DNA from: Orbilia blumenaviensis
Taxonomy: Eukaryota; Ascomycota; Orbiliomycetes; Orbiliales; Orbiliaceae
Reading direction: 5' to 3'
Length of the DNA: 64,000 nt
Assembly (NCBI GenBank): GCA_036872755.1
Contig: JAVHNS010000007.1
Span: forward strand, 1,116,001-1,180,000
Position numbers and translations under genes: made by a program
Shown: piece by piece, positions 4,754-59,251 of the stretch
Layout: every line of letters begins with the position of its first letter
How positions within the stretch are numbered: position 1 is the stretch's first letter
Notes under the pieces: model-generated
The model's input: only the letters and a program-made list of their open reading frames with translations
Database searches by the model: none
What the model was told of the DNA's origin: nothing

Positions 4754-7700
4754 TTAATCCATAGGTTGGTCCATCTGTTCTGCATACTTCTGACTCTCCA
4801 GGCCTGTTTGTAGCTGGTTTTCGATACAATATTTCAATCTCGATCCGTTGATCGGATGTTTCAGCGTAATTGGTCGCTTTCCGGTAACTTCTTGGATCGT
4901 CTTTATTTTGTATGCGTTCTTGTCCAAGGTCTCCGCAATTTGAAAGGGGCCTTTCCATCTGCTGACGAAAATTGGACCAAACCCTTTGTCCATTCTAGAA
5001 TCTCGTAACCAAACTCTATCTCCGACAGCGTATTTATTCTGCTGTTCTTCCTCCATTGGCTTGGGCTTGTGTATTTCCTTCTGTATGTCCCTAAGTCCTG
5101 GTAGATAATCGTGTAACAGCTGTACACGCTTACTAATCAGTTCTTTGTATTTTTCTTCCGTTTCAACCCTTGGCATCTCGACGATTACGTCTCCTGGGAG
5201 TCGAATCTCCTGTCCGTATGCGAGGAAAGCTGGGCTGACACCTGTGCTGGTATGTGGGGTAGCTCTGTATGCCCAAAGAACGGCGTTTAGCGAATTAGCC
5301 CATTCGATACCGGCGCCAGAGGCTTTTCCAGTTGGGGCATCATTTTCTTCCATATCTATCTCCATGTCATCTACTGCGTTGATGTCTGCCATATGTTTGG
5401 AAAGCATAGACTTAATCGTCTGTATCGCTCTTTCCGCAGCTCCATTCGATTGTGGGTAATATGGTGTCGACATGTGGTGCTTCGTTTTCATCAACTCTGC
5501 GAAGGCTTCGATAACCTCGTTCACAAAATGGACACCACGGTCGCTTGTGATTGTGTCTGGGGCTCCGAACCGGCAACTAAGGTCGTAAAGACACTGTGCA
5601 GCTGTAATCTGGTCGTTTGTTTCCGTAGGTACCGCCTCTACCCACTTTGTGAGTCTATCGACCGCTAGGAATACATACTTATGACCGGTTAGACGGTCTG
5701 CTGGAAAGGGGCCGGCGAAGTCTATGTTCCAATGCTTCAGGACGTCCCCTGGGGTTGGTTTGTATCCGGGTATACTCAGTTTATCTTTTCTGGAGAACCG
5801 TTGGCAGACCTTGCATTGCTTTATGTATCTCTTGATAACTGTGGGCAATGCTGGGAACCAGTATGACCTTCCCATAAGCTTATAACATGTATTCGCAGCT
5901 CTGTGTGACACACCGTCGTGGAATTCTCTGATACGGTCAAATAATTCTTTTCCGTCCTGGATGACTTTGAGCCTTTGACCTTTATATGTCATCCATAGCG
6001 CCTCATCGTTGTCTATAAAACATGACTTGGCCAAAAGTTTGACCATTCGTTTTATTGGGCTTTCGAGCGTCTCTGGGATGGTTTTATCTTTGAGATACTT
6101 GTACACATGCTCCACTGCCTGTATCTTACGCTTCTGAGTCATTGTGTATCTTGGCATTTTTGCCGCTTCTGGGTAGTCGTGATCTATGTCTGGGATGATC
6201 ACATTCATCGCATATGACCCGTTCATTTGTAGATCAATCAAATCGGTTGAAGGGAACTCGGTGATGGTGTATAGTCTCGACTCCTCCATTCCCTCTTCAG
6301 CCTGAAACCGAAAGTCAACGGTTCCTGTCAGGGTATTGTTGTACCTGGTTTTTGCGATCGACCATGGCTCAATAAAACTCGAAGGCTTGCCTTCCTTATA
6401 TTCATTTATTGGCCCTCCAAGATCCGGACCAAACACCAGTTCTGCCGTTGTCATACATTCTTGTCCGTAATCGATATATAGCCTTGTGTATTGATCGGCT
6501 ATCATTCTGGATCCGCTTATCCACTCTATTTGAAATTCGTATTCCGCCAGCGCTACCGCATATCTTGCCACTGCTGGGTTGGTCGAAAACTTTGCGTCTA
6601 GGAGGAATTTATTGGCCCTTGAATCTGTTCGCCAAACAAACGGTACTGATGACAGCCATGCGTGAAATTTACCACAGGTGTATACCAAAGCTAGCGCCTC
6701 CAGTCTTGCGACATCATAATTGTATTGTGCCGGTGTTAAGCCCGTGGAGGCAAATGCTGTTACATACTCTAGGCCGTTCTCTCCGATTTGTGTGATTACT
6801 GCGCCTAATCCGCCTGGTATGGATCTGTCGTGCGAGCCTGGGGCTGCGTCCGTGTATACATAGGTCTTTCTGCCGTAGTCAAATGTGACCAAGACTGCCG
6901 GGCTTCGTAGGTATTCTTTGATATTGTCGTGCTCTACGATAGCTTCCGGTGTGAGTCGCAATTTTGTCTTTCCTTTGCCTTTTCGGCTCAATGCTATCAT
7001 GTTTTGGATTCTCAGGGCGTATCCCGGGACTCTGTCCCTGAATTGGTTCACCAATCCCAGGTTGCTTAGCAGGTCCGTGTATGTCTCTGGGTATTTCATT
7101 TTCCCGACTGCGTCGATGATATGTGGGGCGACCCTGATCATTCCGCCTCCTATGATACATCCTAGAGCTGTGAGCTCTCTCATGCCTATGACTGCCTTGC
7201 GCAGCTTCCATTTCCATCCATATTGCCTAGCCAATTCGTATAGCTCACGTCCTTGGCGCAAAAGTTCTTCGTATTCCTTATCTCCAGTACTTTGTTTGGT
7301 GACTTTACTTATAAAATCGTCGTAGTAGTTCATCAGCTTACCGTTCCTCTTGAGGCTGCTGTATGCGACGTCTGCATTCCTTGCAAGAGTGGCGGGGCCG
7401 TTTTTGTCACCGAACTGAAGTCTGGTTGCTATCATCAACTTGCCGAAAATCTCGAAAGCCGTATAGGCCTGATCTTCTTTCTGGATCTCAATTTGTTGGT
7501 ACCCCCTATCTGCGTCATGGGCCATGAAGAGGACCCCGTTCGCCATATACTCGTACATCTCCGTCATCGAGTGCACTGGGTATGGATCTGTCCTCATGAC
7601 TTCGTTTATAAGACGATAGTCTATGGCGACTCTTGCGTATTTAGGGTTTTCCGGTTCTTCCTTATTCTTTCTTACGACGACCAGTTGGGCCCTATAGTGT

Positions 7701-10594
7701 CCAGATGGGTATGGGGCTGGCTCGTAGATTTGCAACTCCAGAAGTGGGTCCATTTTGATGTGTATCATTCTGTCGTTTTTTGGAGATTTTAAATGCGGTC
7801 TGGGCTTCATGACGCATTCCTTATCACTCGTAAGTTCAATTCTATGCTTTATGGCGTCGATGTGGCCAAGATCTAGGGCACACCAACTAAAGACATCAGC
7901 GAACTCTAAGATTAGGTCCGCATAATTGTCTTTGAACCACTCCGGGGCTTCCTTGCCGAAAGTAACTTGGTTCTTCACGAATTCTTTAGATACAACAGGC
8001 ATTCCGTCCGCTTCTTCTGGCCAGGGGCCGTCGATCTCCGCAACAATATTCCTTTGTCCTATCGAAATCGCGTTTCCGTCGTTGACGTAGTAGAGTGGGC
8101 TGTCTGGTCCATATGGGAACCTGACGTTGGTCGTATTCGCAGTAGTAATAGCAGCCAGCGGCTGCACGTCGTCCTTTCTTGGTGGTCTTTTATTAGTGGT
8201 GGTTCGCAACTGTATAAATTTTGGCAGGCTTATGATCGCCGTGTTCCATCTCGGGAACAACGCCATCGCCGTTTTGCAAATAAACTTAGTTCCCAGTAGT
8301 AGTTCGAAATCCGCCTGTTCGACTACGTAGACTCTAATTCTGTAAATCACATCCTCCCAGCCAAACTTATAGTCATCATACATGCCGGTCGCAAGCAAAG
8401 TCTTTCTGTCGACTGTAGTGAACGTTATATCCGCTGGTATAGTATCGATATTCAACCGGACAACTTCTCTGCGTGGAATGACAGCATCTACGGCACCGGT
8501 ATCAAGAACAACCTTGATTTTCTCACCGTTAGCGTCTTCAGCATCGCAAGATAGGTTGGAATTGGGTATGAAGTGATCGATATGTTCCAGGCTGTCCACT
8601 TCGAAGACTTCTCTGAACCTATATTCACTGCCCAGAACTTGACAAAGAGGCAAAGATGTCACCTCTCCGTTCAGCTCCGTGGTAGATAGGTCGTCTATCT
8701 TTTCTTCCCTGGACAGACTTTCTGCCTCGTTCGTGGGGGTGTGTGGCAAATTGTGGGATTCAAAAAGGCCTTGTCTACCTTCGTTTGTTCCATTGTCGTG
8801 CGCATCAAAAAACATCTTTCCGCGCCCTTGGTCTACAACATTCTGAGGTCTTTGTTCGTTCTGAGATTGTCGTCTGGCTCTTGCCTGGTCTCGTTTTTGT
8901 TGATTTCGCGGTGATGGGCAATTGGGTGCATAATGTCCAGTCCCGTCGCAGTTATCGCATACAATGCTGGCTGGATCGAGATTGGAATTTCCTTGATACG
9001 CGCCTCGATTTTGATTTCCTTGATACGCGCCTCGATTTTGATAACCACCGCGTCCGCCTCTGTTGCTCTGATTGGGTTGATAGTCTTGCTGTTGTTGGTA
9101 TTGTTGGTAACCCTGGTAGCCTTGGTAGCCTCCGCGGGATCCACCTCTTCCACCTCTTCCTCTTCCACCATAGTACCCAGGTTGGTACGGTGGATTCTGA
9201 GGTGGGGGAGACGTTTGTCTTTGCATTTCCTTTAGTTTTTCGCACTCGTCTGTGGAATGGTTGCCTTTCGGGTGTAGGACACACTTGTCCTTGGGCTTTT
9301 CCTTTTCCTTATCCTTATCTCTATCCTTTTCTTTCCTTTTTTCTTTAGTTAAGTTCAGCTTCGCATCTTGGACCCAATTCTTGACTTGGTTCCAGAATTC
9401 CGCTTCGTTATCGTTGTATGGCACTTTATTCTTCAACCAATCTGGCCAGGATGCTTTGATTTTGGTTATCTTCATACTCCAAGTTGTGATATTTGCTCGT
9501 CGGCACAGGCGCTCGACATGTGACTTGAAGTTTGCGACACCCATATCTTCCTCTTTGAGGGGGTCCCATTTTAATGCATCAAGTTCTGCCAGCGCCAATG
9601 CTTCTTCCCTAGCTGGGTCGAATTCAGCAGCCAACAGCGCATACAAGCTTGACTCGACGGTACCAGCCGGCACCTGATTTGCGTTTTGGGCTACTTTCCA
9701 GCAATTTGGCTTAGTATGGGTAGGATCAGCTTTCCTGTTGTCCCACCACTCTCTTGCAGTTCCAGTGAACTTCTCAGCCAGATTAGCACAGAACTTCTTC
9801 CCTATTTCATAAACCTGAATTGAGGAAGGCGTTCCATCTGGGACATATGTATATCCTGTGTCTGGGGAACCAGTGACTGTCCCTCCATAGAAACATGGGA
9901 TATCTCTCGCATCACAATGGTCCTCGACTGCGGAGTCGAATTTACGCAATTCGTCTGCAAGTCCGGCAAATGACATGAATCCATCTGAGACCAGAATCTC
10001 CTTAGTCTTTGGCAAGACCGTACGGGGTGGAGGTTGTTGTGCCATCTGAGGTTGATTGACAGCTTGCGGCTGGTTAACTTGAGGTTGGTTAACAGCTTGC
10101 GGTTGGTTAACTTGAGGTTGATTTCCTTGAGGTTGATTTCCTTGAGGTTGATTGACTCGAGGTTGATTTACCTGAGGTTGTTGAGGTTGATTTGGATTGA
10201 TGTGTAAGTTCTGGATGTTCTGAAGTAAATTGTTGTCGTTATTATTATTATTATTATTTGCGACGATCGCCCTGTGCGTTGATATTGCTCCTGGGGTGAT
10301 CGTGAAGGTTGTCCGCAGTGGACCTTGATCGTCTTGGAAATTGAACCTGTTGGCAAATTCCTGTACAACTGCAATGTAGTCTTGATCAGACAAGGTCACG
10401 TCTAATCTTCTACCCGCGTGGCTTATGTATTGTGCTCTCGACTGTGAAGACAGCTGGTTGAGGTGGTTGTTCGCACAGACAAGGTATGCAGGTTCGTCCC
10501 ACGTTAAACCGTGACCATGTAGAACAACAATTGTTGCGCAATACCTATTGATCTCTCTGTCGGTTATGTCCCTTCCGTCGTATGTTACTACCAT
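4754..10594 (-). CDS. Gag-Pol polyprotein of the Ty3/Gypsy retrotransposon, 1946 aa
   Basis: A single uninterrupted ORF encodes both Gag and Pol with no frameshift. The first 110 residues form a domain I do not recognise. A low-complexity stretch with repeated NQPQ units follows (plus-strand 10055-10200), then the Gag core, an RGG/YQG-rich part, and a CCHC zinc knuckle (CDNCDGTGHYAPNC, near residue 545). The aspartic protease motif DTGA lies near residue 700. Reverse transcriptase carries YYDD near 1090, where YVDD or YIDD is more usual. RNase H has a TDAAPGS motif near 1250. Integrase has an H-H-C-C zinc-binding region (about 1560-1600) and the D-D-E core: IDFAGPF, TSDRGVHF and PQSNGAAERA. 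The C-terminus has a GPY/F-like module (RWKGPF) and no chromodomain. All catalytic motifs are intact. Confidence 0.95.
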   Translation of the reverse strand: MVVTYDGRDITDREINRYCATIVVLHGHGLTWDEPAYLVCANNHLNQLSSQSRAQYISHAGRRLDVTLSDQDYIAVVQEFANRFNFQDDQGPLRTTFTITPGAISTHRAIVANNNNNNNDNNLLQNIQNLHINPNQPQQPQVNQPRVNQPQGNQPQGNQPQVNQPQAVNQPQVNQPQAVNQPQMAQQPPPRTVLPKTKEILVSDGFMSFAGLADELRKFDSAVEDHCDARDIPCFYGGTVTGSPDTGYTYVPDGTPSSIQVYEIGKKFCANLAEKFTGTAREWWDNRKADPTHTKPNCWKVAQNANQVPAGTVESSLYALLAAEFDPAREEALALAELDALKWDPLKEEDMGVANFKSHVERLCRRANITTWSMKITKIKASWPDWLKNKVPYNDNEAEFWNQVKNWVQDAKLNLTKEKRKEKDRDKDKEKEKPKDKCVLHPKGNHSTDECEKLKEMQRQTSPPPQNPPYQPGYYGGRGRGGRGGSRGGYQGYQGYQQYQQQQDYQPNQSNRGGRGGYQNRGAYQGNQNRGAYQGNSNLDPASIVCDNCDGTGHYAPNCPSPRNQQKRDQARARRQSQNEQRPQNVVDQGRGKMFFDAHDNGTNEGRQGLFESHNLPHTPTNEAESLSREEKIDDLSTTELNGEVTSLPLCQVLGSEYRFREVFEVDSLEHIDHFIPNSNLSCDAEDANGEKIKVVLDTGAVDAVIPRREVVRLNIDTIPADITFTTVDRKTLLATGMYDDYKFGWEDVIYRIRVYVVEQADFELLLGTKFICKTAMALFPRWNTAIISLPKFIQLRTTTNKRPPRKDDVQPLAAITTANTTNVRFPYGPDSPLYYVNDGNAISIGQRNIVAEIDGPWPEEADGMPVVSKEFVKNQVTFGKEAPEWFKDNYADLILEFADVFSWCALDLGHIDAIKHRIELTSDKECVMKPRPHLKSPKNDRMIHIKMDPLLELQIYEPAPYPSGHYRAQLVVVRKNKEEPENPKYARVAIDYRLINEVMRTDPYPVHSMTEMYEYMANGVLFMAHDADRGYQQIEIQKEDQAYTAFEIFGKLMIATRLQFGDKNGPATLARNADVAYSSLKRNGKLMNYYDDFISKVTKQSTGDKEYEELLRQGRELYELARQYGWKWKLRKAVIGMRELTALGCIIGGGMIRVAPHIIDAVGKMKYPETYTDLLSNLGLVNQFRDRVPGYALRIQNMIALSRKGKGKTKLRLTPEAIVEHDNIKEYLRSPAVLVTFDYGRKTYVYTDAAPGSHDRSIPGGLGAVITQIGENGLEYVTAFASTGLTPAQYNYDVARLEALALVYTCGKFHAWLSSVPFVWRTDSRANKFLLDAKFSTNPAVARYAVALAEYEFQIEWISGSRMIADQYTRLYIDYGQECMTTAELVFGPDLGGPINEYKEGKPSSFIEPWSIAKTRYNNTLTGTVDFRFQAEEGMEESRLYTITEFPSTDLIDLQMNGSYAMNVIIPDIDHDYPEAAKMPRYTMTQKRKIQAVEHVYKYLKDKTIPETLESPIKRMVKLLAKSCFIDNDEALWMTYKGQRLKVIQDGKELFDRIREFHDGVSHRAANTCYKLMGRSYWFPALPTVIKRYIKQCKVCQRFSRKDKLSIPGYKPTPGDVLKHWNIDFAGPFPADRLTGHKYVFLAVDRLTKWVEAVPTETNDQITAAQCLYDLSCRFGAPDTITSDRGVHFVNEVIEAFAELMKTKHHMSTPYYPQSNGAAERAIQTIKSMLSKHMADINAVDDMEIDMEENDAPTGKASGAGIEWANSLNAVLWAYRATPHTSTGVSPAFLAYGQEIRLPGDVIVEMPRVETEEKYKELISKRVQLLHDYLPGLRDIQKEIHKPKPMEEEQQNKYAVGDRVWLRDSRMDKGFGPIFVSRWKGPFQIAETLDKNAYKIKTIQEVTGKRPITLKHPINGSRLKYCIENQLQTGLESQKYAEQMDQPMD

Positions 10595-54434: not shown

Positions 54435-54847
54435 GGTGGCAAGCTGCCTGCAAGACACGATATTTATATTTTCGCAGATTCTTTTTAACATAACTGGTCA
54501 TTTCGGAGTTTATTCAACATGATGGGGTTGGGAATGGCGTCTACGAATATTCAACAATTGCATGGGATTAGGCAGTCTCAGTGGGCAAAAGTCTAGTTTA
54601 ACAGTTACAGCCCATGTACTATATTCAACAAAGTTTATTAATATGGTGGGGCATGGAGGGTATTCAACAATAGCTAGATTGTAACAATCGCCGTTTGCAG
54701 TGGCCATTCAACTAGGCCCTGACTTATGTCTAATGTCTATAAGGTTTATAAAATTCTACACGATATGAAAAGACTTCGGAGGGTACTAGGCTGTTCAATA
54801 TTCTTCTAGTGCATAAACCCACGCCGTCGATTATGTAGAAATCACGA
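54435..54847. other. Convergent intergenic region between the deaminase gene and RAD9
   Basis: 413 bases with no gene. It contains three similar phrases (TATTCAACAT, TATTCAACAA) spread over 54510-54670, perhaps a small degenerate repeat. Confidence 0.45.
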
Positions 54848-56803
54848 TCAGTCGTCGAATAGGCCTTTAACCTAGAATAGACATGAGTATCGATTCCACG
54901 AATATCATAGCAATGTTCAGGGCGTAGGATACTTACCACATTCTTCCGCTGGGTTGCTTCAACATAGCTCCCTGATTCCTCTACTCGTTCTTCTCTCTGT
55001 TCTCCCTGTTTCCTAGCAACTGCCTTTCCTTTATCCGCATTAACCGCCCGTTCCTGCAATTCCACGAATGAAACCCTCTCGGATCCTAGAGATGCATCCC
55101 ACCCAAGCACGTCCTCCTCGTCAAGATCGTCTAGTAATGCTTCAAACTGCTCATCACCAGCGGGAACCGGTGACGAACCAAATACGTCGTCATCATCGTC
55201 CATAATAAATAGGCTCTGGCTTTGCCTGGGCGGTAATGATCCTCGGAGGCCTGTCGAAAGAGAAGGCTGTCGGCTAACCGGTACTAATGGTGAATCCTTA
55301 CTATTCGGAACCGCGGATACAGACCCATCACGAGGAGTAACTCGCGATGGCGGTGGCGGCATCTCCGTAGATATAGACCCGAGCCTTGAAGTTTCCCTTA
55401 CAGCAGCCTCTGGCTGTACTGACGCACTCGGTAGCATAGTAGGTATAGCCGACTTCAAAGCAACCGACGTCTCCCTAATCCTCGCCGCACTCCCCGGAAC
55501 ACTCCCAGGGGCAGCACTCCTATGACTCATAATCTTCGCAACAGGCTCCGCTTTCCCTGCTGGTCCTGTGGCGCCCTTCTTCCGCGTCATAAGCGTGAAT
55601 TCGCAAAACATACCGTTCTGATCATAGGTTATCTGCATCGGTTGCCCTGGCTCACCATATGCAGCTTGTATTTGTATATGTTCGAATGTCCCTGCATGGG
55701 TGACTATGGACTTGAAGTCTTTGACTGAGACGGCAATTGCAGTGTCCCGGGTTACTTGGAATTCGTTAAATTCTATGAGATCGAGTTCAATGGAGGTTTG
55801 TAGGGGTGTTCTTAGGATATCTACGAACATTAAGGTTAATAAACTTTGAGGTGAAGTTTTTGACTATAAACAGGGAATACATACGGGCACCATCAATAAT
55901 TTTAAGGGTGTAACTGGTGAAATTAACTCGTTCTTCTTCAGGTGCGATTTCCAGATGCTCCGTCTTAGGACCAAAATGTTCCATCCATTTCTTCAGTTCA
56001 CCAGCTCTGATAGCCCACTTATTCACACCCCACTCTTTTAAGAAAGTAGCATGTATGATATCTGCTTCTTCGTACTGCAGGCGAAATGTTTTCATGATCC
56101 CTGAATTACATCAAGGATTAGTAGAGATCTTACAAGGTTCTAATAGATTAGATCAACTTACCATGTCGGCAAAATAACTTGACAACAAGTCTGCATTGTC
56201 CTTTGTTTGGCTTTTCCTGAAGCACAATCTCGCACTTATCAATTCCTCCAACTGAATTCTCATCCCTCTCTCTATTGATAGACTCCTGTACGTATCTTCC
56301 GCGAAAAACGGGTAACAGCGCCTATCCGAAAAAAGTTCAGATGTTAGCGTCTAGAATCCCGATATTGTACCCCACAAAAATATTTTCACGGCTTGCGGTT
56401 GAAGGACTTGAAACATACCTTAACATTCATCTTGCACTTAAACGACCCTTCCTCCCCCCTCTGTGAGACCTGGCTACCACCATTACTTCCAAAAGACAAC
56501 CGAGTCGGGTCTGGCACGAAGTTGTAAGAATCACAAAACATATCGCCTGCAAGGCATATCAAAATGTGAGCTGAATGCGTCGGATTCAGGGTTCGTAGGT
56601 TTAACTGTAAGGATGCAAGTCCAATGACGGTTAATTTTGGGGTTAATTCCTAAAACTTCACTAGGCTGTTATAGGTATTCGAACTCTACCTTGTTTCTTC
56701 TAGCTTCCAATGTAACCGAATCCCCGAATTTAGATAAACAGGTAAGTGCCTCGTATAACCTGTCGACAGCGAGGGGATTGAGTATTATCTGAAGCGTTGC
56801 CAT
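54848..56803 (-). CDS. RAD9: Rad9 DNA-damage checkpoint clamp subunit, 527 aa, six exons
   Basis: Exons: 56803-56690, 56604-56419, 56321-56162, 56100-55885, 55820-54937 and 54871-54848; all phases agree. Rad9 forms the 9-1-1 clamp with Rad1 and Hus1, which is loaded at damaged DNA to activate the ATR kinase. The PCNA-like part spans about residues 1-255 (MATLQIILNPLAVDRL, LRTLNPTHSA, IMKTFRLQYEEAD, FNEFQVTRDTAIAV). The Ser/Pro-rich tail (about 255-500) would be phosphorylated and bind TopBP1-type proteins, and ends with an acidic stretch. The last exon is only 24 nt and gives the conserved ending VKGLFDD after TQRKN; reading through the GTAAGT intron instead would give a longer unconserved tail. 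A run of about 20 A directly precedes the ATG in the mRNA sense. Confidence 0.94.
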
Positions 56804-58058: not shown

Positions 58059-59251
58059 CTAGACTTCCATAGTGCCTGCGGGGTCCTCGTCAGCAGAGTC
58101 GTAGGAGCCTACGGAACTCATCTCCTCGTCACTATCGCTGACCTCGCTCGTTGCCTCCATCGCCTCTTTCGTTGCGTACTTACCAACGTATTCTATTATC
58201 TCAAAACGGAGAAACAGTTATCAGCCACTGATATACAGATTGGTAAGTCTCATGCGGCGGATTTGCATACCCTTGACTCGGCTGGCGTAGGCTTCTTTAC
58301 TCCTCATTATCAGAGCAGCGGCCTCGCCATTGAGTGGATCGTTGGCATTTGGATAACCCAGTAACTGGGGTAGAAAGACTTCAAAGATGTTGATCATATC
58401 AAACATGGGCGACCAAGTTTGATTGATCACATCAAGACAAACGGAACCACTTCTAACCTCGCGAATTAGGTTGTTATAGTTGACGCCAAGAAGATAATAT
58501 GGACAGGATGTACGTACAGCTCATCGATATTTGGGTGAAATATCTTGTTGACGAAACCGATCGATGGAGATTTATAGGGGTACTGGTCAGGTAATTCAAC
58601 GTGTACTTTCCAAATTCCGCCTTCGAAGGGAGCTATATATATAGGTACATCACGTGAGCAAAGGGATCTGGTGTGTCCGAGATTGGGTAGAAGGTCTAGC
58701 ATACTATCTTTTGGTCCATTGAACCGAACATAAAACTCTTGCCTAGAGATGGTCGAGCTATGAGTTATCGGGATTTTTAAGGTTGGTTATTGGAGCTTGG
58801 ACATACACTATATCGTATTGGTCAGCGGGTTCGGTTATCGATCGAGACGAACGGGCGAATTGGAATGCAGTGTAAGGGTGGGGGACATACTGTTATCATT
58901 GACCAATGTGACTTCATAATCACTCATCAGCCTATGGAAGTATCAAGAGAGTCAATGGTGGTGCCCCGGGCGCTCGATGGAAGGACCGTTTTCGGAGTAG
59001 TGGCAAATTCCATGAGAATCCTGCCGGCAAGTACGTACAGCCTACAAGTGGCATGTTAGCAATCTGTCTTGAGAATTACCGACACAGCCGGGACATTTGA
59101 GTATTTCCGTACTTCATAACCTATAGACCATGAGAAAGAGAGTATATTAGCATATTCGTAATCGCTCAGGTCGATATCCCCAAATTCGATATAATCGAAG
59201 GAAATTTTGTGTACATACATCTGTCTCGATTCTTCGCCTCGGGGAACTCAT
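58059..59251 (-). CDS. UBC8: Ubiquitin-conjugating enzyme E2 Ubc8 (UBE2H), 184 aa, with 8-, 3- and 1-nt exons
   Basis: Exons: 59251-59219, 59120-59113 (8 nt), 59041-59039 (3 nt), 58931-58891, 58807 (1 nt), 58742-58705, 58632-58518, 58452-58271 and 58192-58059. The product follows the Ubc8/UBE2H family along its whole length: [46 protein letters not shown], the catalytic Cys85 in [13 protein letters not shown], and an acidic C-terminal tail. In yeast, Ubc8 serves the GID ligase in degrading gluconeogenic enzymes. The 3-nt exon GCT supplies the second Leu of KLLM. The 1-nt exon T supplies the Met of NDNMQEF and is required for frame, because exons 4 and 6 do not otherwise join. Each tiny exon has an AG before and GTACGT or GTATGT after, with branch-like TGCTAAC or GCTGACC upstream. 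A sequence error is the main alternative for the 1-nt exon. Confidence 0.88.

Follow-up and report, generated by a model that had tools for sequence, protein, structure and literature searches.

Predicted exons of 8, 3 and 1 nucleotides in the UBC8 gene of Orbilia blumenaviensis, a run probably ancestral to Pezizomycotina

Introduction

The Arabidopsis gene APC11 contains a documented 1-nt exon (PMC4674806), and conserved 1-nt exons that are absent from annotations have been described in plant APC11 and VPS55 (PMC8831610). Among fungi, a 1-nt exon has been described in CYP621A of Fusarium, where the authors present it as the first for a fungal gene (PMC12940212). The short introns of filamentous fungi are intron-defined, as set out in the sections consulted of the work on stwintrons (PMC5639578). 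Here, we analysed a stretch of 64,000 nucleotides from the genome of Orbilia blumenaviensis (the window), in which an earlier, sequence-only reading had proposed that the UBC8 gene needs three microexons of 8, 3 and 1 nt. That reading took exons of 1–3 nt to be very rare but documented in plants and animals.

Results

The UBC8 gene in nine exons

Reconstructed from the letters of the window, the UBC8 gene occupies positions 59251–58059 of the minus strand and consists of nine exons and eight introns. The joined exons (33, 8, 3, 41, 1, 38, 115, 182 and 134 nt) give a 555-nt coding sequence, the sole stop of which is terminal. The introns are 64–107 nt long, with the donors GTATGT, GTACGG, GTACGT or GTATGC and a TAG acceptor in all eight. 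The features, with what each is based on, are as follows.

59219–59251, minus strand: exon 1, 33 nt, 11 residues (reconstruction and unique splice path)
59121–59218, minus strand: intron 1, 98 nt, GTATGT..TAG (reconstruction)
59113–59120, minus strand: microexon 2, 8 nt, GTTATGAA (V M K) (reconstruction, unique path, IETDVMKY read-throughs)
59042–59112, minus strand: intron 2, 71 nt, GTACGG..CTAAC..TAG (reconstruction, branch-motif scan)
59039–59041, minus strand: microexon 3, 3 nt, GCT, completing K14 and starting L15 (reconstruction, unique path, shuffles, MK[ML]Y read-throughs)
58932–59038, minus strand: intron 3, 107 nt, GTACGT..TTGAC..TAG (reconstruction, branch-motif scan)
58891–58931, minus strand: exon 4, 41 nt, ending in phase 1 (..NDN A) (reconstruction)
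58808–58890, minus strand: intron 4, 83 nt, GTATGT..CTGAC..TAG (reconstruction, branch-motif scan)
58807–58807, minus strand: microexon 5, 1 nt, T (reconstruction, unique path, shuffles, NDNM[YF] read-throughs)
58743–58806, minus strand: intron 5, 64 nt, GTATGT..TAG (reconstruction; homologous stretch translated in two O. oligospora models)
58705–58742, minus strand: exon 6, 38 nt, starting in phase 2 (G CAA GAG) (reconstruction)
58633–58704, minus strand: intron 6, 72 nt (reconstruction)
58518–58632, minus strand: exon 7, 115 nt (reconstruction)
58453–58517, minus strand: intron 7, 65 nt (reconstruction)
58271–58452, minus strand: exon 8, 182 nt, bearing Cys85 (reconstruction)
58193–58270, minus strand: intron 8, 78 nt (reconstruction)
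58059–58192, minus strand: exon 9, 134 nt, including the stop codon (reconstruction)

The product of 184 amino acids matches the Pfam family UQ_con with 134.5 bits. The closest solved structures are 8pmq_E (residues 1–177, 243.9 bits), followed by 8pjn and 2z5d (UBE2H); its best structural relatives are yeast Ubc8 and human UBE2H, aligned over nearly the full length. Cys85 lies in the VCLDVI context of the active site and is unchanged across 20 aligned proteins. The product is a UBC8/UBE2H-type E2 enzyme. A protein search of the whole genome (42.5 Mb, 23 contigs) revealed no further or intronless copy of UBC8 and hence one locus; the matches at 95–96% identity are the window's own UBC8 exons, and all others lie at 25–48%.

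Two other reading frames were observed on the minus strand of the window. An ORF of 1,946 amino acids (4754–10594) has protease, reverse transcriptase, RNase H and integrase domains, resembling the gag-pol frame of an LTR retroelement. A 366-amino-acid ORF (54730–55830) aligns over residues 7–77 with the C-terminal portion of the Rad9 model (41.4 bits) and could be the final exon of a Rad9 gene.

A single splice path through three microexons

Could one base, the T at 58807, be an exon of its own? It is flanked by a complete acceptor upstream and a complete donor downstream (..GATATAG-T-GTATGT..), where exon 4 ends in phase 1 and exon 6 starts in phase 2, and its insertion restores the frame, as the sequence-only reading had claimed. 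The positions given there for GTTATGAA (59120–59113), GCT (59041–59039) and T proved exact, each of the three having TAG immediately before it and a GTAYGN donor immediately after it. The expected NDNMQEF was likewise recovered: T is the middle base of the Met29 codon in the open 184-residue frame, so that this ATG is assembled across three exons. The proposed need for the microexons, on the other hand, stands only in part, since T (or a shifted donor) is required for the frame, whereas GCT is required for the conserved length only.

Omission of T leads to a stop after 79 residues, ahead of Cys85; therefore, T must be included for function. Omission of GCT keeps the frame and costs one Leu, giving KLM in place of the KLLM spelled by the full path, again as had been proposed. 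We also observed that the GCT microexon duplicates the first three bases of exon 4 (58931–58929), both reading TAG|GCTG, and therefore skipping GCT alters only that one Leu.

We enumerated all GT..AG chains with introns of 40–250 nt against residues 1–50 of P0002, a homologue from another source, allowing at most one mismatch. Exactly one chain spells these residues, with internal exons of 8, 3, 41, 1 and 38 nt, and a Phe/Tyr difference at residue 33 accounts for the permitted mismatch. The same exhaustive enumeration yielded no path in which Met29 is deleted altogether. In 100,000 dinucleotide shuffles of the two inter-exon stretches, with the six end bases fixed and a minimum of 45 nt on either side, no instance of YAG-T-GTATGT was produced; YAG-T-GTRNGT arose at a rate of 3e-5 and any YAG-N-GTRNG at 1.1e-3. 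For 3-nt sites, the rates were 1.05e-3 (YAG-NNN-GTRNGT) and 8e-5 (YAG-(GCT/GTT)-GTRNGT). GCT is followed by the donor GTACGT and T by GTATGT, and a CTAAC motif precedes GCT in intron 2. The YTRAY branch motif was absent from introns 5 and 6 in the range scanned and is thus uninformative as a discriminator.

Homologues and the errors of their gene models

Three ranked protein lists, each the best 120 of 5,564, 4,945 and 5,146 matches, together held 311 distinct proteins: 210 from named Pezizomycotina, 44 from other named fungi, 3 labelled as plants and 54 unnamed assembly proteins. The 44 comprise 15 chytrid-like, 15 Mucoro-/Zoopago-/Mortierellomycota-like, 11 Saccharomycotina and 3 Taphrinomycotina proteins; no Basidiomycota were noticed among them in the matches listed. 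The 54 unnamed proteins are probably transcripts, as their contigs do not exceed 7,280 nt and their frames run without a break; the source tags of the unbroken ones do not name RNA. Fungal classes were looked up in the taxonomy for nine species (Orbiliomycetes, Pezizomycetes, Eurotiomycetes, Dothideomycetes, Sordariomycetes, Leotiomycetes, Geoglossomycetes, Lichinomycetes and Coniocybomycetes, the last being that of Sclerophora). All counts refer to clusters at 90% identity, of which one species sometimes contributes several, and do not represent independent events.

Among the matches listed, the T junction is intact in all 44 other named fungi, in 52 of the 54 unnamed proteins (P0138 and P0283, the two exceptions, are without that stretch) and in 12 of the 210 named Pezizomycotina; annotation thus succeeds in some cases, and introns may have been lost in certain lineages. 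Of the 210 listed, 7 have both junctions intact. The first list, ranked on the whole protein and so favouring intact models, has the T junction intact in 7 of 30 named Pezizomycotina (best 120 of 5,564), whereas the other two were ranked on the part behind the junctions. The third consists mostly of Sordariomycetes and Leotiomycetes and was drawn up after the idea had been recorded; there, the junction is intact in 3 of 103 of the matches listed, or 4 when P0226 (RDSMQEF) is counted.

The errors fall into recurrent patterns, which were checked in the same form on the 101 remaining proteins (44 + 3 + 54) as controls. The following counts are of the 210 named Pezizomycotina in the matches listed, and each pattern occurs in 0 of the 101 others.

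NDNM[YF], 20: A|T, then GTAY or GTTY; 4 of the 20 keep the entire intron 5 (57–75 nt implied)
MK[ML]Y, 20: GCT or GAT read on into the donor; 3 of the 20 keep the entire intron 3 (54–96 nt implied)
IETDVMKY, 10: the 8-nt exon read on into the donor
NDNS and one or two residues before QEF, 20: like a donor shifted by 4 nt
NDNR-QEF, 5: one base substituting for T
Cys continuing the upstream exon, 17: fits TGT
NDNTPF, 19: T and exon 6 skipped
One residue short before MSD, 48

In P0150 (Penicillium riverlandense), introns 3 and 5 are both retained whole. Among the species looked up, read-through signatures of T or of the 3-nt exon occur in Orbilia, Sclerophora, Penicillium, Aureobasidium, Xylaria and Lachnellula, and the models of Kalaharituber (NDNSKQEF), Geoglossum (KLMSDY, NDNS..) and Lichina are broken only in ways that fit. 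Most of the wrong models mark a difficult junction, not which base is hidden. The sequence-only reading had suggested a comparison with UBC8 gene structures in related fungi as a check; here, conservation is read from faulty protein models.

Several individual entries deserve mention. The unnamed proteins P0005, P0083, P0111, P0146, P0161, P0170 and P0288, and P0122, P0123, P0125, P0236 and P0248, start exactly at Met13, encoded in the 8-nt exon, or at Met17, encoded in exon 4, as would be expected of transcripts that retain intron 1 or 3, or of cut contigs. The chytrid protein P0120 (Fimicolochytrium jonesii) reads VMKLNSLMSDY, two residues too long at the position of the 3-nt exon, and going by it, an intron near this position may be older than Pezizomycotina. 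P0062, labelled Anthurium amnicola, resembles the UBC8 of an early-diverging fungus and may stem from contamination, and P0001 and P0003 (Quercus, Pyrus) have an internally repeated segment.

The closest relatives and the Orbiliales models

P0002 (184 amino acids, 97% identical, from seven contigs of at most 3,566 nt) carries KLLM and NDNMQEF unbroken, and so does P0005, which starts at Met13. Their source tags are 'lgn' and 'jgi', neither of which states RNA; the 'lgn' tag of unbroken homologues presumably stands for assembled read archives. We infer that P0002 and P0005 are transcripts, and their unbroken frames imply that T would be present in the mature RNA. A search for the DNA of relatives with P0002 as the query gave 2 matches in viral contigs and 45 in genome contigs, with no relative among them.

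All five named Orbiliales models listed (P0004, P0008, P0087, P0093 and P0121) are wrong in the microexon region. In P0004 and P0008, both from Orbilia oligospora, the upstream exon is followed by Cys-Thr-Pro.., that is, T and GTAC.. translated from AG|T on. Back-translated, the two peptides align to intron 5 of the window with a score of 26 each, compared with maxima of 13 and 14 in 500 shuffles, and the alignment implies a 67-nt intron 5 in O. oligospora. Furthermore, P0004 reads VMK-L-Y, which we decoded as GCT and the first four bases of the following donor. The acceptors ahead of GCT and T appear to exist in O. oligospora too, because these peptides decode as read-throughs. The microexon model is supported by the unique splice path, by a near-identical unbroken homologue and by the error pattern of public annotation.

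Other readings of the locus

Two simpler paths are open, both giving altered proteins: one omits GCT by means of a single 181-nt intron (KLM), and the other omits T by means of a shifted donor, GTCCCC at 58886 (NDNSM). In the first, GCT would be no exon, and a single intron would join AA to GCTGATG, giving KLMSDY in frame and one residue shorter, like the 48 of 210 short models in the matches listed. This we regard as very improbable, since the full length is found in all 47 of the 54 unnamed proteins that cover the site and is kept in 43 of the 44 other named fungi (matches listed), as well as in yeast Ubc8 and human UBE2H according to the PDB alignments. The CTAAC motif before GCT and the GTACGT donor after it also argue against this path. 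Skipping of GCT as a minor isoform is conceivable beside its regular inclusion.

In the second path, there is no 1-nt exon, and a single 144-nt intron begins at a donor lying 4 nt further downstream (AACAGTAT|GTCCCC), giving NDNSMQEF with one extra residue. The path is open and in frame, and the 20 of 210 listed Pezizomycotina models with NDNS and one or two residues before QEF resemble it. However, GTCCCC looks weak and would be used by passing over GTATGT 4 nt upstream, NDNS is found in none of the other 101 listed proteins, and NDNM or an equivalent is found in 52 of the 54 unnamed ones. The residue after S also varies (K 7, M 6, E 3, T 1, L 1, Q 1, ML 1); K, M, E and T would correspond to misread GTAA, GTAT, GTGA and GTAC donors, and L, Q and ML fit less well. 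We therefore give this reading very little credence.

Equally hard to sustain is the view that the paired introns are nested twin introns (stwintrons), in which an internal intron splits a splice element of an external one, although stwintrons do occur in filamentous fungi and require consecutive splicing, as described in the sections consulted (PMC5639578). The [D1,2] type, on which our comparison was centred and in which the internal intron divides the external donor between G and T, requires a G before the internal donor, whereas introns 2 and 4 are preceded by A (ATGAA, AACA). Each pair consists of two complete GT-AG introns, and by reasoning, nested excision would leave only the outer prefix and suffix and could not keep T. 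Of the two routes that the sequence-only reading had offered, consecutive removal of two complete introns fits, whereas nested twin introns do not.

A reading frame that is off by one base typically points to an indel, and the missing base could have been lost in sequencing at the start of exon 6. Such an assembly error is extremely improbable, because the independent models of O. oligospora and Dactylellina cionopaga break at the same junction, as do those of other classes, and exon 6 of D. cionopaga P0093 appears to be translated in a shifted frame.

Discussion

We consider it very likely that the first third of UBC8 is encoded in exons of 33, 8, 3, 41, 1 and 38 nt, the introns being removed consecutively with GCT and T kept, and that this run is ancestral to Pezizomycotina. 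Each short GT-AG intron (64–107 nt) would be recognised through its own splice sites, that is, by intron definition, and the introns flanking a microexon would leave one after another, because an acceptor and a following donor separated by only 1 or 3 nt are unlikely to be bound at the same time. Such successive removal is the most likely course on present evidence. GCT and T would then remain as spacers between two consecutive introns. Loss of T would destroy the UBC8 protein, and loss of GCT would shorten its N-terminal region by one residue.

How old is the run? By decoding faulty protein models, we infer that it is ancestral, because the Orbiliomycetes share it with other classes. It is quite probable that the last common ancestor of Pezizomycotina already had all three exons of 8, 3 and 1 nt and that most classes retain them, where they cause systematically wrong public UBC8 models. 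Gene-model errors suggest that Aspergillus and Penicillium have GAT where O. blumenaviensis has GCT. At the T junction, human UBE2H has one residue fewer than the fungal proteins, so the length of this junction is not universal, and therefore the exact length there rests on the fungal comparison.

Most public UBC8 models of the filamentous ascomycetes sampled (matches listed) are wrong at the microexons. The errors suggest a rule for detecting hidden microexons, namely that 4-nt donor shifts which restore the frame accumulate, together with donor read-throughs, at a single alignment column. UBC8 would also be a tractable test bed, in Aspergillus nidulans, Neurospora and Trichoderma, for splicing with an acceptor and a donor one base apart. 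If the reading is true, the T of UBC8 is an ancient, clade-wide fungal 1-nt exon. A literature search found no paper on UBC8 microexons among those covered, the one match that linked microexons with a ubiquitin-conjugating enzyme being a study on soybean.

The nearest parallels are plant APC11 and VPS55, which share with UBC8 a single-nucleotide exon, conservation over a large clade and absence from reference annotations (PMC4674806, PMC8831610). APC11 is, like UBC8, part of the ubiquitin system. On the other hand, these are different genes in plants, and the accounts consulted, as far as they go, do not mention neighbouring 3-nt or 8-nt exons. The Fusarium CYP621A exon is likewise a fungal 1-nt exon revealed by phase 1 and phase 2 exon ends that do not join (PMC12940212); it is backed by SRA reads, whereas the UBC8 exon is predicted from sequence. 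It is a G in AG-G-GT within one P450 subfamily of Fusarium, according to the sections consulted (PMC12940212), compared with a T in a conserved E2 gene that shows signs across several classes and has two further microexons.

Consecutive, intron-defined splicing of adjoining introns would be a feature shared with fungal stwintrons, but those are nested, whereas UBC8 has two complete introns in series with 1 or 3 bases kept between them (PMC5639578). Trichoderma Xlr2 also has a microexon in a filamentous ascomycete, described as an alternative inclusion that depends on glucose (PMC11121469), unlike the T of UBC8, which is required for an intact enzyme. The P450 genes of Phanerochaete resemble UBC8 in having short exons in fungal genes; these belong to another phylum, and the shortest in the part consulted is 6 bp, in contrast to 1 nt in UBC8 (PMC1184071). 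Exons of 1 nt were thus known before, and what is new in UBC8 is apparently the age and breadth of its predicted run and the company of 3-nt and 8-nt exons.
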